Shown here piece by piece: positions 1 through 10,846 of a stretch of 10,846 nt of DNA. The stretch is from Lentzea sp. Its GTDB lineage: Bacteria; Actinomycetota; Actinomycetes; Mycobacteriales; Pseudonocardiaceae. Position 1 is the stretch's first letter; the number at the start of each line of letters is the position of its first letter. The position numbers and the translations under genes are program-made. The notes under the pieces were generated by a model. That model worked only from the letters and a program-made list of their open reading frames with translations, was not told the DNA's origin and did not search any database. The stretch spans positions 1 through 10,846 of the forward strand of contig JASLAV010000436.1 of assembly GCA_030146905.1 (NCBI GenBank), given 5' to 3'.

Positions 1-12
1 ACATCGTGATGA
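1..12 (+). other. possible end of an upstream gene (tandem stop codons)
   Basis: Reading from base 1, the first codons give Thr-Ser followed by two consecutive TGA stops (7-9 and 10-12). This would fit the last residues of a gene entering from the left, but two codons cannot show coding, so this is only a possibility. No complete gene lies before the defence operon starting near 112. Confidence 0.2.
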
Positions 13-24
13 CCCGCAGCACGA

Positions 25-59
25 CCGATCCGGTGCCGCGATCCCGTTGCGGGGATCGG
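25..59 (+). terminator. overlapping alternative stem-loops upstream of jetA
   Basis: Three related segments can pair in two mutually exclusive ways. CGATCCC (39-45) pairs with GGGATCG (52-58) around a 6-nt loop, and CCGATCC (25-31) pairs with GGATCGG (53-59) around a longer loop. Each stem has 7 perfect pairs with a GATC core. There is no T-run after the stem, so a classical intrinsic terminator is not shown. It could end an upstream transcript, be an operator for the jet operon, or be chance in GC-rich DNA. Confidence 0.35.
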
Positions 60-98
60 CCGGTCCCCACGTCACCCGAAAGCTCTACAGCGACCCGC

Positions 99-104
99 TA
101 CCGT
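99..104 (+). promoter_or_regulatory. putative -10 box (TACCGT) for a leaderless jetA transcript
   Basis: TACCGT fits the actinobacterial TANNNT -10 consensus and ends 7 nt before the GTG at 112. Transcription would then start at or next to the start codon. No Shine-Dalgarno sequence precedes either GTG (103 or 112), which supports leaderless translation. No convincing -35 box is visible. The box overlaps the upstream GTG at 103, which argues against 103 as the real start. Confidence 0.4.
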
Positions 105-111
105 GACACAG

Positions 112-1518
112 GTGACGACGTTCCCACCGGTGCCCGCGGACCTGTTCCGCTTCACCACGGCCGAGCACGCGGAGCTGCACACAGCGGTGCTGCGCGCGTT
201 CGGCGTGGCGAACGAGCGCCTGGAGACCGCCCTCACCCTCGACGACGTGCAGCGACGACTCCGGGACGTCGGCTGGTCCGAGCAGGTGACCGACGACGAG
301 CTGACCGCGTCGCTCACCGCTCTGCGTCAGTGGGGCCTGATCGACACGGCGCAGCACCGCCACGGCCTCACCAAGCTCGGCGAAGCGGCGTACGCGGGCG
401 TCCAGCACGCGTTGCGCACCCTCACGAGCAGCGGCTCCCTGCAGACCGCCGTCCTCGACGCGATCGCGGACCGCCTCGACGAGCTGCACGACGTGCAGGA
501 CGACCGCCGCGTGTTCACCGCGCTGATGGAGCTCGAAGGCCACCTCGACGCCCTTCACGCCGGCACCACGCGCTTCAACGCGGACCTGCAGAGGCTCCTC
601 AGGGACGACCAGGCCGACCTCGCCACGTTCCAGGACGTCAAGCGGACCACGATCACCTACCTGCGCGACTTCGTCGCCGACCTGGACGCGCGCAAGCAGC
701 AGATCCGCGACAAGATCGACGGCATCGACGTCACCAAGATCCACGAGCGTGCGCGCAACGGCGCCGACCTGTACCAGGGCACGGACCTGTGGCTGCAGCA
801 ACGCGCAGCGCGCTGGAAGACCCTCCTGTCCTGGTTCCACGACACCCCGCCGCGCGCCGACGAGCTGCAGGACGTGGCGCGCAAGGCGATCGTGCAGCTG
901 CTGCGCGTGCTCGACCGCATCAGCGAACAGCGCAAGAGGCCGACGAACACCGCGGCCGACTTCCGCGCGCTCGCCAGGTGGTTCGCGCGGACCGAGACCG
1001 AGGACGAGGCGCACGAGCTGTTCAACGCCGCGTTCGGCTTGTGGCCCGCGCGGCACGCCCACCTAGCGCACGCCGACGGCGAGCTGCTCCCGAGCGGCGA
1101 GCCGTGGCACAACACGCCACCGGTGCCGGTGTCGCCGCAGCTGCGCGCGACCGGCAAGCAGGAGCACATCGGCAGCACGGGCAAGGTCCGCAACGTCGAG
1201 GAGGTCCGCCGCAACCGCCGCGAGCAGGCCGAGAGGGAACGCCGGGAGCTCGAACACGCCTGGTCGCAGATCCAGACCGACGGCGCCGTCCGGATCTCCA
1301 CGCTCACGAGCCTCGACCACGACACGTTCCACCGGCTGATCGACCTGGTCGGCAGGGCTCTGGGCAGCGACCCGGACAGCACCGGCACGCGCACGGCGGG
1401 CACCACCGACGGCAGGATGCAGATCAACCTGCGCAACGCACGCGGGTGGGCGACGATCACCACCCAGAAGGGCACGCTGAGCGGGCCCGACTACGTGATC
1501 GACGTGCAGAGCCGATGA
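112..1518 (+). CDS. jetA: DUF2397 / TIGR02677 family protein, Wadjet type III JetA (kleisin-like subunit)
   Basis: The protein has 468 aa from GTG 112; GTG 103 would add three residues. I recognise TIGR02677/DUF2397 from the N-terminus (PADLFRFTTAEHAELHTAVL), a winged-helix-like segment at about residues 45-90 (VQRRLRDVGW...LTALRQWGLI), a long helical middle, and the C-terminal end SGPDYVIDV. Length is close to the family norm as I recall it. In Wadjet systems JetA is the kleisin-like subunit bridging the JetC ATPase heads and binding JetB; the complex acts on circular plasmid DNA in the cytoplasm. The stop overlaps the jetB start as ATGA (1515-1518), so the two genes are translationally coupled. 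Start 112 was chosen because a TANNNT -10 box sits 7 nt upstream. The family call is confident; the kleisin role is inferred from studied Wadjet complexes, mainly type I. Confidence 0.92.
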   Translation: MTTFPPVPADLFRFTTAEHAELHTAVLRAFGVANERLETALTLDDVQRRLRDVGWSEQVTDDELTASLTALRQWGLIDTAQHRHGLTKLGEAAYAGVQHALRTLTSSGSLQTAVLDAIADRLDELHDVQDDRRVFTALMELEGHLDALHAGTTRFNADLQRLLRDDQADLATFQDVKRTTITYLRDFVADLDARKQQIRDKIDGIDVTKIHERARNGADLYQGTDLWLQQRAARWKTLLSWFHDTPPRADELQDVARKAIVQLLRVLDRISEQRKRPTNTAADFRALARWFARTETEDEAHELFNAAFGLWPARHAHLAHADGELLPSGEPWHNTPPVPVSPQLRATGKQEHIGSTGKVRNVEEVRRNRREQAERERRELEHAWSQIQTDGAVRISTLTSLDHDTFHRLIDLVGRALGSDPDSTGTRTAGTTDGRMQINLRNARGWATITTQKGTLSGPDYVIDVQSR

Positions 1519-2597
1519 GCAGGACCGGGAACCAGCTCGCGCGGCTGGAGAGCGAGGAGGTGGCGCGTGGTGTGCGGTTGCTGCTCGCGCGTCCGCTGCT
1601 CACGGCCGTCTACGACCACGACGGCTTCGACCTCGTCAGAAGGCGCCGCGAACCGATCGTGAAGTGGTTCGACTACTACTGCGGCTGGCGTGTGCACGTC
1701 GAGCCACGCGCCGGATACGCGCGTCTGTTCAAGACGACGCAACGGCCCGACCGCACGCGTCCGCTGTTCGACCGGCGGCGCTACACGTTGCTGTGCCTGG
1801 TGTGCGCGGAGCTGCTGACCACCCCGATGACGACGGTGGACGCCCTGACGACGCGCACGAGACAGGCGGCCGCGGCGGAGGGGCTGCCGCCGTTCGACCT
1901 GGACCGGCGCAGCGACAGGTCCGCGCTGGCCGACGTGCTGACGTTCCTCGAGGAACACGGCGCCATCGAGAGCGACGAGGTGCAGGTGCGCGCGGACCCG
2001 GTGCTCATCACCCGCCTGCTGGCCGCGCCGAACCCGCCGTCCACGGTGGACAGCGTCGAGGACCTCACGCACGAGTCGCGGTACGAGAACGCGCACCGCA
2101 GCCTGTGGCAACGGCACTCCGTGATGCGCCGGCTGATCGACGACCCCGTGGTCTACAAGGAAGACCTGACCGCGAGCCAGCTCGCGTTCCTGATGTCCCC
2201 CACGGGACGCAAGGTCGTTCAGACGGGCGTCGGGCTCGCCGGGTGCACGCTGGAGGAACGCGCCGAGGGTTTTCTCGTGGTCGACGCCGACGCGATCGCC
2301 ACGGACATGAGGTTCCCGGACGACGACAGCAGCGCGAAGGTCGCCGCGTTGTTGTTGCTCGACCGGTTGGCACAAGGTTCCGCACGGTTCGACGACCTGG
2401 TCGAAGAAGCACGCGAGCTGCTCGCCAAGTTCCGCAACTGGGCCAAGGCCTACCAGTCGGACGGCGGTGCGGGCAGGCTGGCGGCGGACGGGCTCGCACT
2501 GCTCGAGGCGTTCGGACTCGCGCGCACGGAGAACGGCACCGTTCGCAGGCTGCCGGCGGCAGCCAGGTACGCGGTCGAGGAGCAGCAACATGGCTGA
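1515..2597 (+). CDS. jetB: DUF2398 / TIGR02678 family protein, Wadjet type III JetB (KITE-like subunit)
   Basis: The protein has 360 aa. It resembles TIGR02678/DUF2398: an N-terminal segment with LARPLLTAVYDHDGFDLVRR (about residues 20-40), a charged winged-helix-like middle (TLLCLVCAELLTTPMTTVDAL), the conserved block HSVMRRLIDDPVVYKEDLT (about 197-215), and a C-terminal winged-helix-like part ending FGLARTENGTVRRLPAAARY. In Wadjet complexes JetB is a KITE-type winged-helix protein that dimerises and binds the JetA kleisin. The ATG at 1515 overlaps the jetA stop (ATGA) and has only a weak purine stretch before it, so coupled translation is likely. Its last 8 bp overlap the start of jetC. The reading frame happens to stay open back to base 6, but this is the third-position GC shadow of jetA, not an N-terminal extension. 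Confidence 0.92.
   Translation: MSRTGNQLARLESEEVARGVRLLLARPLLTAVYDHDGFDLVRRRREPIVKWFDYYCGWRVHVEPRAGYARLFKTTQRPDRTRPLFDRRRYTLLCLVCAELLTTPMTTVDALTTRTRQAAAAEGLPPFDLDRRSDRSALADVLTFLEEHGAIESDEVQVRADPVLITRLLAAPNPPSTVDSVEDLTHESRYENAHRSLWQRHSVMRRLIDDPVVYKEDLTASQLAFLMSPTGRKVVQTGVGLAGCTLEERAEGFLVVDADAIATDMRFPDDDSSAKVAALLLLDRLAQGSARFDDLVEEARELLAKFRNWAKAYQSDGGAGRLAADGLALLEAFGLARTENGTVRRLPAAARYAVEEQQHG
2577..2582 (+). promoter_or_regulatory. ribosome binding site of jetC (GAGGAG)
   Basis: GAGGAG near the end of jetB lies about 7 nt before the ATG at 2590. It supports that ATG over in-frame starts further upstream (for example 2467) that lie inside jetB. Confidence 0.55.
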
Positions 2598-5500
2598 CCG
2601 GTGGCAACCCAGCCGCGCCGGCATCATCAACGTCTGGCGCTACTACGACGAGATCTTCTCGTTCTACCAGGGCAGGCTGCTGCTCAGGGGCCCCAACGGC
2701 ACCGGCAAGTCGAAGGCGCTCGAACTGCTGCTGCCGTACCTCTTCGACGCGAACCTGCGCCCGCACCGGCTGTCGACGTTCGGCAGCGCGGACAGGACGA
2801 TGCACTGGAACCTCATGGGCGAGGGCAACCAGGGCAGCACCCGCGTGGGGTACGTGTGGCTGGAGTTCCAGCAGGGCGAGCAGTGGTTCACGTGCGGTGC
2901 GCGGCTCCAGGCCACCACGAACACGTCCAACGTCGCCGCCACGTACTTCACGACGTCGCTGCGGGTCGGTGACCTGCTGCTGGTGAACGAGTCCGGGCGG
3001 CCGTTGACCAAGACGGACCTCGCCGCGGCGATGGGCGAACACGGTGTCGTGCACGCCTCACCGGCCGACTACCGGCACACGGTGCGGACGACGTTGTTCC
3101 CCGGCGTGAGTGAGCAGCGCTACGACTCGTTGATCACGGCGCTGCTGCAGCTGCGCACGCCGAAGCTGTCCGAACGGCTCGACCCGAGCGTGCTGTCGTC
3201 GTTGCTGTCGAAGGCGCTTCCGCCGCTGGACCAGTCCGACCTGACGGAGATCGCCGAGGGCTTCGAACGGCTCGACCGCCAGCGCGAGGACCTGCGGCGG
3301 CTGGACGAGGAGATCCTCACCGCGGGGAAGCTCGCGGACGTGCAGCGCGTCTATGCGCAGCGTGTGCTGGGTGCGGCGGCGTACGCGCTGTCGTCTTCCG
3401 CCGAGCACCTCGAAGACACGACGCGTGCCGCGCGGATGAGCGAACGGCGTTTCCAGCGCCAGGTCACCCTGACGGACGAGGCGTTCGAGCAGCTCGTCGC
3501 GCTGGGACGGGAGGCGAGCGCGGTCGACGCCGAGATCGCCGGCATCTCCGACCTGCCCGCCTACCAGGAGGGCAAGCAGCTCGACCTGTTGCGGCAGCAG
3601 CTTTCCGCGGCGACCCTGCGCGCCTCGGAGGCCGCGTCACACGCCTCGAAGCTCCGTGCGCGTGCCATCGCGGACGAGGAGCACGCGTCGCAGGCGAAGG
3701 CCGACGCCGCCGCTCGCGCGGACGACTTGCGGCGTTCGGCAGCGGAGGCCCGCGCGGCCGCTGAGCTCGCGGGCATGCCGTCGGTGTTCGAGGAGATCGA
3801 AGCGAACACGGACACGCGTGCGGGCCGTGAACTGCTCACGGCCGCCGTGGACTCCCGTGTCGCCGAGATCAGCTATCTCATGGGTGCCGTCGCAGCGCAC
3901 GAGAGAGCTGTCGACGCACGGGACGCCGCACGTCAACGGCTGGAGGAGACCCGCGAGGAGCTCGACCTCGCCACGGACGCCGAGGTGGCGGCGCAGTACA
4001 CGTTCGAGCAAGCGTTTGCGAAGTTCCGCGCGGACTTCGACACGTGGGCGCACGGCTGCTCTGAGCTGCGCGTGTCCGAGCACGGCGAGATCGTGGAAGC
4101 CGCTGCCCTCGCCCGCGAGGAGTTCAGCGCCATCGAGGCACGTCTGCACGAGACGCGCACCGCGTTGAACGGTCAGCTCTCGCAGTACAACTCCATCCGC
4201 GAGAAGCTCGCCAACCAGGTCGACGTGCCACCGCCCGCGCCGTACACGCGTGACGGCGCTTACCGCGTGCACGCCGTGGGCGCCCCTCTGTGGCGTCTGG
4301 TCAACTTCCGCCACGGCACGCCACCGGAGGTGTGCGCCGCGGTAGAGGCGGCCCTGGAAGCCTCGGGCCTGCTGGACGCGTGGCTCACGCCGGGCAACTC
4401 GTTCGGCCTGTCCGACCAGGACCGCTTCGCCGAGCCGCTGCTCTCCGGCCCCGCGCCCGGCCGCACGCTGCTGGAGGTGCTCGTCACCGAGGACGAGCGC
4501 TGCTACCAGCTGCTCGAAGGCATCGCGTTCGGTGAGACGGCCACCGGCCACATCGCCGCCATCGGCGCGGACGGCACGTGGCGCCTGGGCAACGCCCACG
4601 GCCGCTGGGTCAAGGAGGCACCCACCTACATCGGCGAGAAGGCGCGCCAACGCGCCCGCGCGGGCCGGATCGCCGAGCTCACCGGCCTGATCGAGCAGCT
4701 GGCCACCGACCTGTCCGGTGTGGACGCGGCGCTGTCCCAGATCGCCGTGCGCCGCGCGACCCTGGCGGGCGAGCTGGCGCGGCAGCCGTCGACGGACCCG
4801 ATCGAGATCGCCGAGGAACAGCGCACGAAGGCGCAGTTGCGTTGCGCGGCACGCAAGGACGCCGTGGCGGCCGCTGCCCGGCGCGTGGCGGACGCCGAGG
4901 CGGCGTTCTCCCTCCACAACGTCACGGACGTACCCGACATGGACGCCGTGACAGCGTTCCGGACCGTGGGCCACCGTTGGCTGGACGACCGCCACGACGC
5001 GTTGGCAGCAGAAGCGCTGTCGGTCGAGGCGGGCAGCCGTGCGTCCGTGAGCAACTCCCTGGCCGACGAAGCCGAGGAAACCGCCGCCGCACGTCAGCAG
5101 GAAGCCGCCGACCTCGCCATCACGCTGGAGACCGTCGAACGCTCCGCGGGCTCCGAGTTCCACGCCCTGGACCAGCAGCTCATCTCGTTGCGCACCAAGG
5201 CACTCGCCATCGCCGAGCAACGCGAACTGCTGCAAGACAAGCAAACGGGCCTAGCGCGCACCCTCGGCACGTTGGAGGAGAAGCGCAAGGTAGACACCGC
5301 ACGAGCCGCAGAGGCCACCACCGCCTACGAAGCGGCCGAGGCCCGCTACCGCCACCTCACCGCCGGCCACCTGCCGTCCGACGCCGGTGAAGTGCCGGAC
5401 GGCCCCGTAGACCCGCGTCTGATCCGCGACGCGGAATCCCGCCTAGGCGTGGCCGTGCACGACGCCCAACACCAACTGGCGGGCCGCATCGGCCTGTCGC

Positions 5501-6360
5501 TGGACCCCGACGACGACGTGACGGTGCTGACCGCATCCCTGGACGGCGCGCGCATGGGCGCCCACGCCCTGCTCGAAGCGCTGCAAGCCGAACGCGACCG
5601 CGTGCGCATGCACATCACCGACGCCGAACGCGACCTGTTCGACCAAACCCTCACCGGCGACACGAGAAGGCACCTGGCACAACGAATCCAGGGCGCCGCC
5701 GAACTCGTCGACATCATGAACCACCGCTTGGAGCGCGTCCAAACCGCCTCGGGCATCCGCGTGCAACTCGACTGGCAGGTGGACCCCCAGCTGCCACCGG
5801 GCACGCGAGAAGCCCGCGACCTACTGCTGCGCACAGACCTCGACGCGTCAGAACGCGCGATGCTGCACCAGTTCTTCCGCGAGCGCGTGGAAGAGGCACG
5901 CGCCCACGACACCGCAACAGGCTGGGAACAACAACTGGCCCAGGTGCTCGACTACACGACGTGGCACCAGTTCGTCGTGAAGGTGGACCGCGGCGAAGGC
6001 TGGGTCCCGGTGACCAAACGCGTCCACGGCGCACTGTCCGGCGGCGAGAAGGCCATCGTGCTGCACCTCCCCCTCTTCGCGGCCGCGGCAGCCCACTACC
6101 ACGCCACCCCGACCGCACCACGCCTGATCCTGCTGGACGAGGTGTTCGTCGGCGTCGACGCCACCAACCGCGGCCAGCTGCTGGAGCTGCTGGTGAACTT
6201 CGACCTGGACCTGGTGCTCACGTCGGACCACGAGTGGTGCGACTACCAGGAGCTGACCGGCATCGCGATCCACCAGCTGACCACCGGCACCGACGGCGAC
6301 GACGCGGTCACGACGGTCCGCTTCACGTGGGACGGGCACAGCCTGCACGCCGACGACTAG
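2590..6360 (+). CDS. jetC: TIGR02680 family SMC-like ATPase, Wadjet type III JetC
   Basis: The protein has 1256 aa, somewhat shorter than the ~1350 aa I recall for TIGR02680. The Walker A motif GPNGTGKS is at residues 34-41 near the N-terminus. Ascending coiled coil covers about 230-550 and a globular hinge-like domain about 554-690 (GAPLWRLVNFRHG...GRWVKEAPTYIGEKA). Descending Ala/Glu/Arg-rich coiled coil covers about 690-1100. The C-terminal half-head carries the ABC signature LSGGEK (1149-1154), Walker B LILLDE (1179-1184), a D-loop VDATNRGQ and a switch His in LTSDHEW. All ATPase motifs are intact. JetC is the SMC/MukB/Rad50-like motor that, with JetA and JetB, is thought to extrude DNA loops and sense small circular DNA. 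The ATG overlaps the jetB end by 8 bp and has a GAGGAG site. Residues about 877-1117 use markedly different codons (see findings). No jetD follows. Confidence 0.96.
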   Translation: MADRWQPSRAGIINVWRYYDEIFSFYQGRLLLRGPNGTGKSKALELLLPYLFDANLRPHRLSTFGSADRTMHWNLMGEGNQGSTRVGYVWLEFQQGEQWFTCGARLQATTNTSNVAATYFTTSLRVGDLLLVNESGRPLTKTDLAAAMGEHGVVHASPADYRHTVRTTLFPGVSEQRYDSLITALLQLRTPKLSERLDPSVLSSLLSKALPPLDQSDLTEIAEGFERLDRQREDLRRLDEEILTAGKLADVQRVYAQRVLGAAAYALSSSAEHLEDTTRAARMSERRFQRQVTLTDEAFEQLVALGREASAVDAEIAGISDLPAYQEGKQLDLLRQQLSAATLRASEAASHASKLRARAIADEEHASQAKADAAARADDLRRSAAEARAAAELAGMPSVFEEIEANTDTRAGRELLTAAVDSRVAEISYLMGAVAAHERAVDARDAARQRLEETREELDLATDAEVAAQYTFEQAFAKFRADFDTWAHGCSELRVSEHGEIVEAAALAREEFSAIEARLHETRTALNGQLSQYNSIREKLANQVDVPPPAPYTRDGAYRVHAVGAPLWRLVNFRHGTPPEVCAAVEAALEASGLLDAWLTPGNSFGLSDQDRFAEPLLSGPAPGRTLLEVLVTEDERCYQLLEGIAFGETATGHIAAIGADGTWRLGNAHGRWVKEAPTYIGEKARQRARAGRIAELTGLIEQLATDLSGVDAALSQIAVRRATLAGELARQPSTDPIEIAEEQRTKAQLRCAARKDAVAAAARRVADAEAAFSLHNVTDVPDMDAVTAFRTVGHRWLDDRHDALAAEALSVEAGSRASVSNSLADEAEETAAARQQEAADLAITLETVERSAGSEFHALDQQLISLRTKALAIAEQRELLQDKQTGLARTLGTLEEKRKVDTARAAEATTAYEAAEARYRHLTAGHLPSDAGEVPDGPVDPRLIRDAESRLGVAVHDAQHQLAGRIGLSLDPDDDVTVLTASLDGARMGAHALLEALQAERDRVRMHITDAERDLFDQTLTGDTRRHLAQRIQGAAELVDIMNHRLERVQTASGIRVQLDWQVDPQLPPGTREARDLLLRTDLDASERAMLHQFFRERVEEARAHDTATGWEQQLAQVLDYTTWHQFVVKVDRGEGWVPVTKRVHGALSGGEKAIVLHLPLFAAAAAHYHATPTAPRLILLDEVFVGVDATNRGQLLELLVNFDLDLVLTSDHEWCDYQELTGIAIHQLTTGTDGDDAVTTVRFTWDGHSLHADD

Positions 6361-6413
6361 CTCGCGAGCTGTGCCAACGCTCGACGTTGCTCGTCCGTCA
6401 GCGGGAACGCCGA
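6357..6413 (-). pseudogene. possible C-terminal remnant of a convergent gene
   Basis: On the minus strand, 6413 to 6357 reads SAFPLTDEQRRALAQLAS and then TAG. It looks like the natural helical, charged C-terminus of a protein. Its stop lies in the same CTAG (6357-6360) that holds the jetC stop, as in tightly packed convergent genes. Upstream the frame hits a stop at once (6414-6416), exactly where P450 homology begins on the other strand. One reading is that an older convergent gene was cut by the event that brought the P450 piece. An 18-residue peptide could be chance, so confidence is low and no family is assigned. Confidence 0.22.
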
Positions 6414-7115
6414 TCACCGTCATCTGCGAACTGCTCGGAGTGCCCAAAGCGGACAGAGAGCTGGTCACCACGCTCACCGCGGGGCTGTTCACGCCGGAGA
6501 CCATGGCGGAGGCCTACGGCAAGTTCGCGGCGTACGTGGACCACCTCGTGGACACCAAGGAGCCCGGTGACGACATCATCACCGAGCTTCGCGACGCGCC
6601 GAACCTCGTGAGCACCCTCGTCCTGCTCATCATCGCGGGCCACGAGACCACCGTGCAGCTCATCGGCAACGGTCTGCTGGCACTGCTGCGCGACCCCGCC
6701 ACGAAGCAGCTGCTGCTCAGCGAACCGATCATGATCCCGGACGCCGTCGAGGAGCTCCTGCGCTTCGACGGGCCGTTCGCACTGGGGGTCTCCCGCGTCG
6801 CCACCACCGACCTGGAGATCGGAGGGGTCACAGTTCCGCGATCTTCGCAGGTCACCGTCTCACTTGGAGCGGCGAGCCGGGACCCGTCACGGTTTTCCGA
6901 CCCGGACGTGGTGCAGCTGGACCGAGACCCACACGTCACGTTCGGTCATGGGATCCACTACTGCGTGGGGGACGAGGCGGGCTCGCATCGAGGGCGAGAT
7001 CGCGTTCGGAACGGTCCTCCGGCGTTTCCCTGAACTCGCGCTCGCCGCTGAGCCCGAGTGGAGGGAGGCATTCATCCGAGGATTGGCATCATTTCGCGTG
7101 CGACCGAAGCCTTGA
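6407..7115 (+). pseudogene. cytochrome P450 remnant: 5'-truncated and frameshifted
   Basis: The reading frame from about 6407 gives the second half of a bacterial class I P450. It starts at TPITVICELLGVPKADRE (normally about residue 150 of ~400), then I-helix LLIIAGHETT, the ExxR motif in AVEELLRFDGPF, and the heme loop FGHGIHYCVG with Cys codon 6962-6964. Ten nucleotides (6971-6980) stand where the usual Ala-Pro-Leu needs nine. The frame therefore shifts by +1 and homology continues as ARIEGEIAFGTVLRRFPELAL to a TGA at 7113-7115. The first ~150 residues are missing, and the segment before the I-helix also looks shorter than usual. No start codon with a ribosome site is present. The reading is a decayed fragment of a monooxygenase gene; a sequencing error could explain the frameshift but not the missing N-terminus. 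Confidence 0.9.
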
Positions 7116-7356
7116 CGGCGGCACGGGCCGCCGGCAGGTCGTCGACGGCGTAAATCTCCGGACAGGAAGCGATGACGAGGTCCTTGTCCGACGCGACAGT
7201 CAGCAAAGAAACTTTCTCCGTCAACGACTTCGCTTGCCGGACCACTCCCTTGGCATCGACGCGAATCAGCGTGACCCACGTCTCTGACCAGGGAAAGTCC
7301 GCAACAGCGCTGGATTTCCTCAGGCCTTCCACATCAAACTCGGCAAATCTGGGCAT
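7072..7356 (-). CDS. small hypothetical protein, 94 aa
   Basis: I do not recognise the family. The product (MPRFAEFDVEGLRKSSAVAD...AREMMPILG) alternates hydrophobic and charged stretches (TWVTLIRVDAKGVV, KVSLLTVASDKDLVIA), suggesting a small alpha/beta cytosolic protein. It has one Cys and no signal peptide or membrane span. Its start is well supported: a TTGACT / TATCTT promoter lies immediately upstream with 6 nt between the -10 box and the ATG, and there is no Shine-Dalgarno site, so the transcript is probably leaderless. Its 3' end overlaps the tail of the convergent P450 remnant by 44 bp. The region around its start (about 7190-7400) is visibly richer in A/T than its neighbours. The 312-aa gene upstream ends 48 nt away on the same strand, so read-through is possible, but the gene has its own promoter. 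Confidence 0.65.
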   Translation of the reverse strand: MPRFAEFDVEGLRKSSAVADFPWSETWVTLIRVDAKGVVRQAKSLTEKVSLLTVASDKDLVIASCPEIYAVDDLPAARAAVKASVAREMMPILG

Positions 7357-7362
7357 GACACC

Positions 7363-7393
7363 AAGATAACGAGTCGAGGTTGCGGAAAGTCAA
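7363..7393 (-). promoter_or_regulatory. sigma-70-type promoter of the 94-aa gene
   Basis: On the minus strand, a -35 box TTGACT (7393-7388, 5 of 6 to consensus) is followed after 19 nt by a -10 box TATCTT (7368-7363). The ATG begins 6 nt after the -10 box, which predicts a leaderless mRNA. It is the best promoter match in the window and lies in the short gap between two minus-strand genes. Confidence 0.6.
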
Positions 7394-7404
7394 AGATCAC
7401 CCTT

Positions 7405-8343
7405 TCACCGCAATGCAGCCAGCAGATGGGACAGGTTGACACCAACGGCGTCCGCCAACCGGCGCACGACTTCCGGAGCGGGTGCCAACGGGTGCGTGTC
7501 ACGGGTGAACGGCAGGCCTTCACCACCGGAAAACTTCGATTGCGGCGTAACGGGCGCGAGGATCGGGTAGACGCGCCAGCGCGGCACCTTCGAGTCCGCC
7601 ATGGCGAGCGTGTTCTCATGCCACAGCATCACGGCGGACGACCGGATGTTGCGCGCGAGGACGCACCCGTAGCCCGTCAGCGTGATCGCGCGCGCGGCCG
7701 CACGCACGGGGTTGCGGAAGTCGCCGTCCACCACCCACACACCGTTTATGACCTCTGCCGAGAGACCTTCCGCCTCCAGCGCGGCGAGGGTTTCGGCGTG
7801 CTGGTCGTCCGCGGCGGCCGTGGCCAGTTCGACGACCTCCTGGACCTCCGAGGCCGTCACGACGCGCGCACCGGCCTCCGTGGAGGCGTACAGGAACCGC
7901 TCGACGTAGCGGTCCTCCGCGTAGGCCGCCCACTCCTGGACCTTCTCCCACGCCGACCGTGCGATGACATCGGCCTCGGAACCGCCACGCAGCCGTGCGT
8001 CCTGCAGCAGCTGTGCGAGCACCACGGCGATGACGGAGCTCAACAGCGCGTCATCGCGTGACTCGTCGCCCTCGGGCACGAGAGAGATCGCCAGGTCGCG
8101 CAGGTCGGCACGCCAGCTCTCGTCGCCCGCCCACACGCCGATGGCGAGCAGGTTCAGGTAGTGGTCCGCGAGGGCCATCCTCACGAGCAACGGCTGGCCG
8201 GGCGCCTCTTTGGCGTCACGGCGCGCGGTCGCCTTGATCTGCTGCCGTTCCGCGGGATCCACCACGCTCACGCGGATCTTGTCGAGTTCGTCGAGGAAGT
8301 CGTCCCACCGGTCATCCGAAAACCGGGCGAAGACGTCGTCCAC
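7405..8343 (-). CDS. hypothetical protein, 312 aa, coupled to folP2-type gene
   Basis: I do not recognise the family. The start is GTG 8343, because GGAGG (8354-8350) lies 6 nt upstream. An alternative GTG at 8361 overlaps the folP2-like stop as GTGA and would add six residues (VSWRYQ). Residues 1-40 are acidic (DDVFARFSDDRWDDFLDELDK). The middle is mainly helical and rich in Ala/Glu/Leu (VIARSAWEKVQEWAAYAEDRYVERFL; EVQEVVELATAAADDQHAETLAAL). The C-terminal third looks more globular (VWVVDGDFRNPVRAAARAITLTGYGCVLARNI, KVPRWRVYPILAPVTP) and ends in a short helix. There is no signal peptide or clear membrane span. Tight coupling to the preceding synthase gene implies co-expression, but no function can be inferred from the sequence. 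Confidence 0.83.
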   Translation of the reverse strand: MDDVFARFSDDRWDDFLDELDKIRVSVVDPAERQQIKATARRDAKEAPGQPLLVRMALADHYLNLLAIGVWAGDESWRADLRDLAISLVPEGDESRDDALLSSVIAVVLAQLLQDARLRGGSEADVIARSAWEKVQEWAAYAEDRYVERFLYASTEAGARVVTASEVQEVVELATAAADDQHAETLAALEAEGLSAEVINGVWVVDGDFRNPVRAAARAITLTGYGCVLARNIRSSAVMLWHENTLAMADSKVPRWRVYPILAPVTPQSKFSGGEGLPFTRDTHPLAPAPEVVRRLADAVGVNLSHLLAALR

Positions 8344-8349
8344 CTGATA

Positions 8350-8354
8350 CCTCC
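8350..8354 (-). promoter_or_regulatory. ribosome binding site deciding the start of the 312-aa gene
   Basis: GGAGG on the minus strand, 6 nt before GTG 8343, is a textbook actinobacterial Shine-Dalgarno site. It lies inside the stretch that an upstream GTG (8361) would translate, so it favours 8343. This start is internal to the transcript, unlike the apparently leaderless starts elsewhere in the window. Confidence 0.65.
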
Positions 8355-8357
8355 AGC

Positions 8358-9182
8358 TCACAGTCGAGCGACGGACTCGAGTACTCGTCTGGTCCGCGCC
8401 ACTTCGTGGGCACGGAAGACCGCGGCGCCCGCCAACGCCGCGATCGCAGTCGCGACGAGGGTTCCCTCGACGCGTTCGTGCAGTTCCACGCCGAGGGTCT
8501 CCCCGACGAAGTCCTTGTTGGACAGCGCCATCAGCACCGGCCACCCGGTCGCCACCAGCTCGTCCGTGTGCCGCACCAGCGCGAGGCTGTGCCATGTGTT
8601 CTTGCCGAAGTCGTGTGTGGGGTCGATCAGCACGCCCTTGCGCGGCACGCCGAGCGCGACCACCTTCTCCGCGTGCGTGGTCGTCTCCGCGATGACGTCC
8701 TGCACGACGTCCGGGTAACTGACCCTGTGCGGGCGCGTGCGGGGCTTGACGCCGCCTGTGTGCGAGCAGACGTACCCGGCGCCGTACTCCGCGGCCACCT
8801 CCGCCAGGCGGGGGTCCGCGCCCGCCCACGTGTCGTTCAGGAGGTCGGCACCGGCCTCGCAGGCGAGCCGGCCGACGTCCGCGCGCCAGGTGTCGCTGCT
8901 GATGACGAGTTCCGGGTAGGCGTCGCGCACACGGGCGATGAACGGCACGACGCGGCGCACTTCCTCACCGGAGTCGACGAGGTCGCCCGGGCCCGCCTTC
9001 ACACCGCCGATGTCGACGATGTCCGCGCCCTCGTCGACGACGCGGTGGACGGCCTCCATCGCGACGTCCTCCGCGTAGTTGGCGCCCTTGTCGTAGAACG
9101 AGTCCGGGGTGCGGTTGATGATCGCCATCACCAGTGCGTGGTCGCGGACGACGGTCCGGCCGCGGAACTGGAGCTCGATCAC
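8358..9182 (-). CDS. folP2: dihydropteroate synthase-like protein, FolP2 type
   Basis: The protein has 274 aa, a TIM-barrel pterin-binding enzyme. Visible blocks: AIINRTPDSFYDKG (residues 20-33, counterpart of NVTPDSFSDGG), VDIGGVKAGPG (counterpart of DIGGESTRPGA), ISSDTWRADV, LLNDTWAG, DPTHDFGKNTWHSL, LMALSNKDFVGE (Ser/Lys pterin-site motif) and a final FRAHEV. The pattern matches mycobacterial FolP2 (for example Rv1207) rather than FolP1: NRTPDSFYDKG and GGVKAGPG are its hallmarks. FolP1 joins p-aminobenzoate and dihydropterin pyrophosphate in folate synthesis. FolP2 lacks the STRP loop contacting pABA and sulfonamides, and as I recall the M. leprae copy did not replace DHPS, so the true reaction is uncertain. 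GTG 9182 is the first start in frame; upstream there is only a weak -10-like TAGACA. The stop overlaps or abuts the downstream 312-aa gene; an unrelated DUF2786 gene is divergent. Confidence 0.92.
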   Translation of the reverse strand: MIELQFRGRTVVRDHALVMAIINRTPDSFYDKGANYAEDVAMEAVHRVVDEGADIVDIGGVKAGPGDLVDSGEEVRRVVPFIARVRDAYPELVISSDTWRADVGRLACEAGADLLNDTWAGADPRLAEVAAEYGAGYVCSHTGGVKPRTRPHRVSYPDVVQDVIAETTTHAEKVVALGVPRKGVLIDPTHDFGKNTWHSLALVRHTDELVATGWPVLMALSNKDFVGETLGVELHERVEGTLVATAIAALAGAAVFRAHEVARTRRVLESVARL

Positions 9183-9188
9183 ATCCCG

Positions 9189-9194
9189 TGTCTA
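9189..9194 (-). promoter_or_regulatory. weak -10-like box (TAGACA) before folP2-type gene
   Basis: On the minus strand TAGACA ends 6 nt before the GTG at 9182. The spacing matches the other leaderless starts in this window, but the last base deviates from TANNNT and no -35 is visible. A GGGA sequence directly next to the GTG is too close to be a good ribosome site. Confidence 0.25.
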
Positions 9195-9231
9195 CCAGGT
9201 GGTCCCCGGCTCGTGCACATGGCGGACGTCT

Positions 9232-9237
9232 CATACT
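9232..9237 (+). promoter_or_regulatory. -10 box (CATACT) for the DUF2786 gene
   Basis: CATACT is close to TATACT and ends 7 nt before GTG 9245, with no Shine-Dalgarno site, suggesting a leaderless transcript. The divergent folP2-type start is only 62 nt away, so the two promoters must overlap in their upstream halves. No convincing -35 is visible. Confidence 0.4.
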
Positions 9238-9244
9238 GCCTCGC

Positions 9245-10309
9245 GTGGAACTGGTGAAAGCGGTCGACGAGCTCTGGCAGCGGGGCTGGCTGCCGTACGA
9301 CGTCCGCGAGATCGTGTCGCGTTCACTCGACGAGTCGGCCACGTCCCTCGTGGTGGACGTGATCGCTTTGTCCTGTTCGCCTCATCACGAGGCGACCGTG
9401 CACCCCCGCTGGCGGCGTCAGCTCGAGGAGATCGGCGCCTCCGTCTGGTGGGAGGGACCGCTGCTGGAGGCGTGGGCGACCCGTCACATCGAGACACGGG
9501 CGTACGCGTCCCGCACGGCCAATGAGCTGCTGAAGTTCCTCGGACGGTTGCCGTCGTTGCCGCGCATCCTGCCGTTGCCGGGCGACAGGCTGATGTCGGC
9601 CGTGCGCGCGGGCCTGGACCCGAAGGTGCTCAACCGGGTGCGCGGCCTGCTCGCGAAGGCGGAGTCGACGTCGTTCCCCGAGGAGGCGGAGGCGCTGTCG
9701 GCGAAGGCGCAGGAGCTGATGAACCGGCACGCGCTGGAACGGGCGATGCTCGACGCGGACCTGCCGGCCATGGCGACCTCGCGGCGGATGTGGCTGGACA
9801 AGAGCTACTTCAAGGAGAAGTCGCAGCTGGTGCACGTGGTGGCGTCCGCTTTCCGTTCGCGGGCGGTCGCCTACGACGGGTTCGGCTTCGTCGCGCTGGT
9901 GGGCGACGAGGTGGACCTGGAGAGCGTGGAGCTGCTGTCGACGTCGCTGCTGGTGCAGGCGACCAGGGCGATGGTGGCGGCCGGCGGCCGGGCCGGGAAG
10001 GGCAGCGAGGCGCGCTCGCGGCCGTTCCGCAGGTCGTTCCTGGTGGCGTTCGCGTCGCGGATCGGCGAGCGGCTGGAGACCGTCCCCGACGTCCCGGACA
10101 TCGAGGACGAGCGGCTGCTGCCGGTGCTCGCGGACCGCAAGAAGGCCGTGGACACGTTGTTCGAGGAGATGTTCACGCAGACGCGCACCTCGCGCGTGAC
10201 GGTGCGTTCGGCGGCGGGATGGGGTGCCGGGCGCGCGGCGGCGGACGCCGCGGACATCGGAACCGGCCGGAGCTCGGTGACGTCGGGTCAGCCCCACCCC
10301 TTCGGGTGA
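9245..10309 (+). CDS. DUF2786 domain-containing protein
   Basis: The protein has 354 aa from GTG 9245, chosen because a -10 box sits 7 nt upstream; an open frame back to 9134 runs into the folP2-type gene on the other strand and is rejected. Residues about 1-120 form a helical N-terminal region (ELVKAVDELWQRGWLPYDVREIVSR). The DUF2786 signature is at about 125-165: DPKVLNRVRGLLAKAESTSF, then EEAEALSAKAQELMNRHAL. It is followed by an alpha/beta segment (VHVVASAFRSRAVAYDGFGFVALVGDEVDLESVELLSTSLLVQATRAM) and a C-terminal GWGAGRAAADAADIG motif, both usual in this family. The family is widespread in actinobacteria and its biochemical role is unknown to me. There is no signal peptide or membrane span. 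The gene is divergent from the folP2-type gene and followed after 75 nt by another plus-strand gene with its own putative promoter. Confidence 0.9.
   Translation: MELVKAVDELWQRGWLPYDVREIVSRSLDESATSLVVDVIALSCSPHHEATVHPRWRRQLEEIGASVWWEGPLLEAWATRHIETRAYASRTANELLKFLGRLPSLPRILPLPGDRLMSAVRAGLDPKVLNRVRGLLAKAESTSFPEEAEALSAKAQELMNRHALERAMLDADLPAMATSRRMWLDKSYFKEKSQLVHVVASAFRSRAVAYDGFGFVALVGDEVDLESVELLSTSLLVQATRAMVAAGGRAGKGSEARSRPFRRSFLVAFASRIGERLETVPDVPDIEDERLLPVLADRKKAVDTLFEEMFTQTRTSRVTVRSAAGWGAGRAAADAADIGTGRSSVTSGQPHPFG
10295..10308 (+). terminator. small stem-loop at the stop of the DUF2786 gene
   Basis: CACCC (10295-10299) and GGGTG (10304-10308) form a 5-bp stem with a CTTC loop over the last codons and stop. 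No T-run follows, so it is at best a weak terminator or an RNA 3'-end stabiliser. Confidence 0.25.
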
Positions 10310-10371
10310 ACTCCCCGCATCACAGGAGCTTCCAGGGGCCTCACCGGGAAAAAACCGTCAGACCGCCTCCC

Positions 10372-10377
10372 TAACGT
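10372..10377 (+). promoter_or_regulatory. -10 box (TAACGT) for the partial HTH gene
   Basis: TAACGT fits TANNNT and ends 7 nt before ATG 10385. No Shine-Dalgarno sequence precedes the ATG, so a leaderless transcript is predicted. An A-run (10349-10354) lies about where a -35 would be, but it is not a consensus match. Confidence 0.42.
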
Positions 10378-10384
10378 CGATCCC

Positions 10385-10846
10385 ATGACATCCACCTTCT
10401 ACAACGAGGTCAAGCTCGGCGAGGTCAACTACCGGCTGAGCGCCACGACGAACTCCGACGAGGCCCTGGTGCTGGACCTGCTGGGGTCGCTCGACTCAGG
10501 CGAGGTGATCGCGGACGGCCGCCTGCGCATGCCGGTCGAAGGCGGCGCCACGGTCGGCAGGCTGCTGTGCCGCGTCCTCACCGCCCACACGCGCCTGCGC
10601 CCCCGCCCGTCCCGGCACGCGAACGCCAACCAACCCTGGACCGAATCCCTCGACACGGAGCTCCGCACCGCCTGGCTCGCCGGCGCGGAGGACACCGCCA
10701 CCGCACTCGTCAAGTCCCTGGCCGGCACCATGCAGCGCTCCACCACGGCCATCCGCGCCCGCCTGGCCAAGGTGGGCTGCGACCCGGACGTGCCCGGCCG
10801 CGAGCTCTCCGCGGCAGCCGCCTCCCTGCTGTGGGCGAACACGGAG
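10385..10846 (+). CDS. hypothetical protein with helix-turn-helix-like segment, 3'-partial
   Basis: From ATG 10385 the frame stays open for 154 codons to the end of the window, so the C-terminus is missing. Residues 1-70 look like a small alpha/beta domain (FYNEVKLGEVNYRLSATTNSDEALVLDLLGSL, then a glycine turn and VGRLLCRVLTAHTRLRPRPSR). Residues about 98-130 (WLAGAEDTATALVKSLAGTM, then QRSTTAIRARLAKVGCDPDV) have the spacing of the small homeodomain-like helix-turn-helix in which a TxxAIRARLxKxG recognition helix follows a first helix; DNA binding is thus plausible. A TANNNT -10 box 7 nt before the ATG supports the start. The gene lies 75 nt after the DUF2786 gene on the same strand. The family is not recognised; a regulator is the most likely role but this is inference. 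Confidence 0.78.
   Translation, partial: MTSTFYNEVKLGEVNYRLSATTNSDEALVLDLLGSLDSGEVIADGRLRMPVEGGATVGRLLCRVLTAHTRLRPRPSRHANANQPWTESLDTELRTAWLAGAEDTATALVKSLAGTMQRSTTAIRARLAKVGCDPDVPGRELSAAAASLLWANTE

Follow-up and report, generated by a model that had tools for sequence, protein, structure and literature searches.

A type II Wadjet motor operon of Lentzea that may work without a JetD nuclease

Wadjet type II systems combine a motor, JetABC, with a nuclease, JetD, and a locus that holds only the motor genes raises the question of what such a motor does. The case analyzed here is a 10,846-nucleotide stretch of DNA from Lentzea sp., a soil bacterium (contig JASLAV010000436.1, positions 1 to 10,846 of the forward strand; hereafter the window), in which a jetABC operon stands without jetD. 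The locus could be decaying, could depend on a nuclease encoded elsewhere, or could have taken up a different task. Our preferred reading, to which we give a probability of about 0.58, is that the window carries a type II motor (JetA2-JetB2-JetC2) that is functional, has been inherited vertically and works without a JetD nuclease.

The jetABC operon and its orthologs

The three genes lie on the forward strand in a tightly overlapping operon. jetA (103..1518, with a GTG start at 103 or 112) encodes a kleisin-like protein of TIGR02677/DUF2397; jetB (1515..2597), a KITE-like protein of TIGR02678/DUF2398, overlaps jetA by 4 nt; and jetC (2590..6360), a MukB-like structural maintenance of chromosomes (SMC) ATPase of TIGR02680, overlaps jetB by 8 nt. 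NCBIfam scores were far over cut-off for all three (352.6, 229.3 and 916.6 bits, respectively). In JetC the Walker A motif GPNGTGKS (2689..2712, from residue 34), the ABC signature LSGGEK (6034..6051, from residue 1149) and the Walker B motif LILLDEV (6124..6144, from residue 1179), all encoded on the forward strand, were intact, as they were in 23/23 JetC proteins examined. The description of the trio in an earlier note on this DNA, as complete, closely overlapped and with intact ATPase motifs, was thereby borne out.

The same note had assigned the locus to Wadjet type III. The best PADLOC matches of the trio were JetA2, JetB2 and JetC2, the last of which PADLOC describes as MukB-like, and not the type III component families; from these names we read the core as type II. 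The only match of JetC in the PDB at E ≤ 0.01 was the JetC chain of 9qe0/9qe1 (E 4.8e-75), and the JetA of these entries also matched the JetA of the window (E 1.4e-16); nothing relevant in the PDB matched JetB. Judging from a reference listed in PMC12647877, 9qe0/9qe1 appear to be the type II Wadjet of Neobacillus vireti. The window thus has JetA2, JetB2 and JetC2 proteins encoded in an operon and an intact SMC ATPase, and fails to provide the operon-encoded JetD (DUF2399/DUF3323 Toprim nuclease) of type II. Indeed, a JetD profile, built by us from 57 seeds, found no match anywhere in the window. The seeds were stop-to-stop frames, and matches to the first ~80 positions, which also catch part of jetC, were ignored. 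A search of a plasmid collection returned three records with 73-75% identity over 6-7% of the window.

For comparison, 22 orthologous loci, 21 from Lentzea and one from a sister strain ('Nocardia sp.' NRRL S-836), were analyzed together with flanks of at most 10 kb. JetC identity in the best segment was 84-88% for the Lentzea loci and 70% for NRRL S-836, and the nearest JetC relative was that of L. fradiae (locus L025; 89% over 1254 columns). jetABC occupied the same chromosomal site in 22/22 loci, and the downstream neighbors c4 and the dihydropteroate synthase gene (DHPS) were common to all of them. Consistent with the window, the JetD profile placed jetD after jetC in 0/22. The earlier remark that no jetD follows jetC thus held throughout the orthologs, and the check proposed in the note, whether relatives carry jetD between jetC and the next conserved gene, came out negative.

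Upstream of jetA the picture was varied. The profile detected nothing within the ~10-kb flanks of 14/22 loci. A full jetD lay just upstream in 4/22 (L019, L026, L029 and L033), ending 33-72 nt before the called start of jetA; in L016, L018 and L020 the upstream jetD was front-truncated yet kept its catalytic residues, and in L027 it was degraded, with the glutamate present and no DxD in frame. This upstream jetD belongs to a separate tandem jetABCD and not to the jetABC of the window type. The four full JetDs resemble that of L096, from another jetABCD lineage, at 410-427 bits, against 132 bits for the JetD of L035, a sister of the orphan (that is, jetD-less) operon, and the jetC genes that precede them (L002-L005, repeated rows from the same genomes as L033, L029, L026 and L019) fall far from the orphan jetC in the tree. 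A jetD directly upstream, which the earlier note had counted as decisive against a motor without a cutter, was present in four relatives and truncated in four more, but it is the jetD of another lineage.

In L017, L024, L032 and L039 the tail of jetD was retained as a DNA scar (0/200 base shuffles as good); for L022 and L034, 3/200 and 2/200 shuffles were as good. From these scars and the upstream jetD genes, a tandem jetABCD-jetABC arrangement seems to have been ancestral in Lentzea, with the armed jetABCD half lost several times. The leader upstream of jetA in the window (1..102) shares homology with L023 (starting at base 27) and with L030 (starting at base 44), two loci without a profile-detected jetD, and the C-terminal tail of JetD was not found within it (103/200 shuffles as good). 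The stretch upstream of jetA is a site of gene turnover. In L017, L023, L025, L031 and L032 it holds genes for SLFN-type helicases (~610-630 aa; tandem pairs in four of these loci), in the place that jetD occupies in other species.

Selection was assessed as median ratios of nonsynonymous to synonymous substitution rates (dN/dS, Nei-Gojobori) over 22 sequences, the window and 21 from Lentzea, all near median length. Sequences shorter than 85% of the median and pairs with dS <0.05 were dropped in this main set; in subset gene sets the limit was dS <0.03, two orphan subsets had no such limit, and L034 stood outside the sets. jetABC is under purifying selection: dN/dS was 0.290 for jetA, 0.241 for jetB and 0.182 for jetC, compared with 0.110 for DHPS and 0.294 for the neighboring cytochrome P450 gene. 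The comparison of strains with and without jetD that the earlier note had proposed gave constraint in both sets, slightly less without jetD: the values for jetA, jetB and jetC were 0.248, 0.221 and 0.155 in the four loci with a full upstream jetD, and 0.294, 0.248 and 0.186 in the window and the 13 loci without a profile-detected jetD. Because relatives keep the motor in working order without its cutter, it is suggested that the motor serves some other purpose, perhaps in DNA folding or silencing.

JetD elsewhere and separate losses

A FastTree phylogeny of 93 JetC proteins (L059, L092 and L095, which have no single long JetC frame, were left out; five rows are listed as unknown) grouped the 23 Lentzea-type orphans in a single clade, next to Saccharopolyspora and Actinophytocola xanthii, which have jetD. 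Eight Amycolatopsis loci without an adjacent jetD formed a second clade, and union of the two orphan groups was rejected (approximately unbiased test, p 1.5e-5; 32 rows, with 6 + 4 orphans and 22 others), so that on this phylogeny the loss of JetD in the Amycolatopsis clade would be a separate event. The profile likewise showed no jetD in L078 and L092 (Streptomyces) or in L086 (at a contig end), and these three were left out of the orphan count. Five of the eight Amycolatopsis orphan genomes had a single TIGR02680 match and, at the sensitivity of the profiles (genome completeness figures not given), no match to DUF2399 or JetD_C. In the other three, the contig with the orphan also carried an armed Wadjet as a second locus, its DUF2399 lying upstream of the orphan jetC at a distance of 8-12 kb; in the two compared, this Wadjet had the same type of JetD. 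Two candidate features were set aside. The ~1000-aa gene that follows jetC in most Amycolatopsis orphan loci, considered as an effector, appears regulator-like from its sequence, with tetratricopeptide repeats. A paired shortening of the JetC coiled coil (by 14 aa after residue 502, and by 6 and 17 aa after residue 932) was considered as a sign that docking of JetD had been lost; the Amycolatopsis orphan compared, L043, is not shortened there.

DUF2399 was present in 24/24 Lentzea genomes, and a protein query found a divergent JetD, here called JetD3, in every one of them, next to or near the jetC of a third Wadjet locus wherever that locus was fetched. In all 24 the Toprim glutamate was replaced by R (H in one) and DxD by DxT (DxS in one), which leaves JetD3 without two of the three acidic Toprim residues. 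In an alignment count, E-D-D was found in 69 of 73 other JetD rows (62 distinct sequences), the remaining four being truncated, degraded or in an alternate frame, and E276, D325, D327 and G330 were invariant over 36 JetDs. The acidic Toprim residues serve the chemistry of cutting, and we infer that their replacement abolishes it in JetD3. JetD3 is nevertheless conserved, with a dN/dS of 0.196 (0.194 for the Toprim half; 23 sequences). A review notes the conservation of the acidic residues in JetD (PMC10586767); a conserved JetD with changed catalytic residues is pointed out by the present analysis. AlphaFold models of both kinds of JetD best matched PaJetD (7til), MksG of C. glutamicum (8b7f) and Topo VI-A at low TM-scores of about 0.26-0.39 by query length, and these modeled folds support membership of the JetD fold family only.

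Two observations concern the third locus itself, a conserved type II Wadjet represented by L098:5723-14326 and its equivalents in Lentzea. In different species, different genes are inserted on the opposite strand between its jetC3 and JetD3: a CdiA_C-type protein with a neighbor in L098 (6797-7150), and TetR with MDMPI_N in L100 (6344-7617).

In 12/24 Lentzea genomes no DUF2399 was found beyond JetD3, apart from pieces in G003, G010 and G019 that are short, degraded or under the threshold. Six of these 12 had a JetD_C match and six had none (G004, G006, G007, G010, G011 and G020). Within profile sensitivity, then, a competent-looking JetD was not found in 6/24 Lentzea and 5/8 Amycolatopsis genomes. 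The absence of the cutter was thus observed at the locus and, at that sensitivity, in the genomes of some relatives.

The survey was extended to 90 Pseudonocardiaceae genomes drawn evenly, with the best six candidates per genome scored for JetC; it yielded 80 JetC loci over cut-off. Loci that scored lower or were spread over several contigs were excluded, and two G115 loci in two frames were kept. No DUF2399 lay within 8 kb of 34/80 JetC loci (32/70 outside the four Lentzea genomes), and none was found anywhere in 18 of the 59 genomes counted, nine of these 18 being single-contig. Of the 32 non-Lentzea orphan loci, 28 were of the third-locus kind. Together with eight loci picked because DUF2399 was near, these made up 36 third-locus loci, the composition of which is consequently not a frequency: 21 had no trace of JetD, 7 had part of it and 8 had all or nearly all of it. 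Their JetC carries LSSGET, and its motifs were intact in 35/36, with a broken frame in L182. In most of the 36, the upstream genes agree in size.

Several single loci of the survey deserve record. L185 and L190, among the eight with JetD, have lost the Toprim glutamate and kept DxD, possibly a first step of inactivation. In L107, L140, L158-L160 and L163, JetD is reduced to a fragment, N-terminal or otherwise partial, that has no Toprim and lies immediately behind jetC or close to it; Pfam confirmed DUF3323 in L107 only. L176 (G133) has a TIGR02680 gene in the unusual order jetC-jetA-jetB with no JetD match. Finally, G040 carries a strong TIGR02679 JetD (G040:C2:980476-981573; 324.6 bits, L097) and no TIGR02680 match among the 8 of 18 candidates scored, the reverse of an orphan motor.

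From these data we put forward, at even odds, a broader proposal: that in Pseudonocardiaceae nuclease-free SMC complexes have repeatedly arisen from type II Wadjet, and that these would act as family-level condensins or DNA-silencing machines derived from a defence system independently of MksBEF. Under it, JetABC would have been retained in each of three groups, the window clade, the Amycolatopsis clade and the widespread third-locus lineage; JetD would have disappeared, been cut short ahead of Toprim or, in Lentzea, persisted in a catalytically changed but conserved form.

The junction downstream of jetC

The earlier note had reported a gene-tail scar and a P450 remnant after jetC and had considered that jetD was deleted there. 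Both features are present, and neither is a trace of jetD. The scar (6357..6412, reverse strand), which reads FPLTDEQRRALAQLAS-stop, is the C-terminal tail of c10, a small gene convergent to jetC that was called in 17/22 relatives. By blastn against L016, homology extends up to window position 6412 (L016 13826) and restarts at 6409 (L016 18144), which defines a local deletion with a junction at 6409..6412, 4 nt matched by both sides, and ~4.3 kb of L016 missing. The segment lost comprises c10, one gene each of RNase_T/BRCT and LuxR type, and the 5′ portion of the P450 gene; in none of the 22 orthologs did the JetD profile find a jetD in this interval. The P450 remnant (6409..7115, forward strand) is 5′ truncated by the deletion, and its frame changes near the haem-binding region. 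A deletion, in this strain, of a jetD that once followed jetC was accordingly rejected, since no ortholog has jetD there and the scar is the tail of c10. Beyond the remnant, at 7405-10309, follow the conserved neighbors of the site, an unnamed gene, DHPS and a DUF2786 gene; c4, DHPS and the DUF2786 gene were called in all 22 loci, further down from jetABC.

The c10 product of L034 gave a weak match to DUF6998 (29.3 bits against a cut-off of 27), and that of L030 stayed under the cut-off (18.2 bits); we take the sequence pattern of c10 to be PD-(D/E)XK-like. As an obligate new effector of the motor c10 was rejected, for the window keeps only its tail.

Explanations and related systems

The main rival to a motor-only complex is that JetABC is still a plasmid cutter that borrows JetD in trans, from the upstream tandem jetABCD or from another Wadjet locus. 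The closeness of the upstream jetD (JetD1) to jetA in 4/22 loci, the tails left in others and the apparently ancestral tandem speak for it, as do the armed Wadjets on the same contig in three Amycolatopsis orphan genomes, the strong JetD elsewhere in G009 and G012, and a JetD in G014 (L. fradiae) and G015 that falls below the TIGR02679 cut-off yet has the glutamate and DxD. However, JetD1 belongs to a different jetABC lineage, and the orphan jetABC is still constrained where JetD1 is gone. Moreover, the changed JetD3 is all that G004, G006, G007, G011 and G020 have, with no match to JetD_C, G010 adds to JetD3 only a degraded piece (the glutamate, but no DxD in frame), and five of the eight Amycolatopsis orphan genomes have none. 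We regard borrowing as unlikely, though it is the strongest of the alternatives.

It is considerably less probable that the motor now drives a different, unrelated effector. Candidates for that role would be c10, convergent to jetC in most loci, and the SLFN-type helicases found upstream of jetA in 5/22; but c10 is on the other strand with only a short tail in the window, no unassigned family adjoining jetABC was called in all 22 loci, and the Amycolatopsis loci carry the regulator-like gene after jetC. Least probable, and already disfavored, is a relic on its way to loss, the decaying locus that the earlier note had also allowed for. The broken P450 gene next to jetC, the decay of upstream Wadjet genes in several relatives and the broken jetC of G003 would fit such a relic, but the 22 sequences near median length, dN/dS of 0.18-0.29 and the ATPase motifs intact in 23/23 do not.

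A motor-only, MksBEF-like derivative of type II Wadjet is therefore the best reading, with its activity deduced. The orphan JetABC would still hydrolyze ATP, load onto DNA and extrude loops, as its motifs and constraint suggest; extrusion would no longer end in cleavage, and the outcome might be compaction, segregation or silencing of DNA, chromosomal or plasmid, as in MksBEF. Several points weigh against this reading. Activity of the motor is argued from motifs and constraint, and a JetD may well be encoded left of base 1 or elsewhere in the source genome, the search there having covered the window only. Another DUF2399 protein or truncated piece is present in 12/24 Lentzea genomes; in L. fradiae, the nearest relative, another Wadjet locus encodes a JetD that carries ENP and DxD; G009 and G012 have their strong JetD; and 4/22 loci have one just upstream. 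dN/dS is slightly higher where jetD is missing, albeit far below 1 throughout, and the constraint on jetA is the weakest (0.29), like that on the P450 gene. Lastly, of the 24 Lentzea genomes one (G024) has no clear ortholog and one (G003) has a jetC split by frame breaks. The broken orphan jetC of G003 lies in L106 (10791-14644), and the other Wadjet genes of this single-contig genome are also broken, possibly through sequencing error.

Sister species carry armed, scarred and unarmed versions of the locus and so offer a natural comparison for testing what a Wadjet motor does once its cutter is gone. Such loci may also be misread by programs that report Wadjet when only some of its four genes are present. 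A table row in PMC11719660 lists, in the part of that source consulted, a Wadjet match of Paenarthrobacter lasiusi with JetA, JetB and JetC only, without comment; in the open literature, with most subscription papers outside its coverage, our search found no study of a type II JetABC without JetD.

With Wadjet type II (JetABCD; DUF2397, DUF2398, TIGR02680 and DUF2399/DUF3323) the window shares motor subunits, gene order, overlaps and ATPase motifs, and its closest relatives beyond the clade are JetABCD operons with all four genes; it differs in that the window-type operon is without its own jetD in all 22 orthologous loci. MukBEF is a nuclease-free SMC-kleisin-KITE complex made of protein families different from those of the window motor, PADLOC's description of JetC2 notwithstanding. 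MksBEF of Pseudomonas aeruginosa is likewise a JetABC-like motor without JetD and is said to contribute to chromosome organization, whereas the window complex is of type II families; at the level of the locus the window too has an SMC-kleisin-KITE motor without JetD/MksG, and the likeness is claimed for this organization only. MksBEF likely arose from JetABCD by loss of JetD, and a like origin has been speculated for MukBEF (PMC10586767). The present case would represent separate, partly recent repeats of the JetD-loss step proposed for MksBEF.

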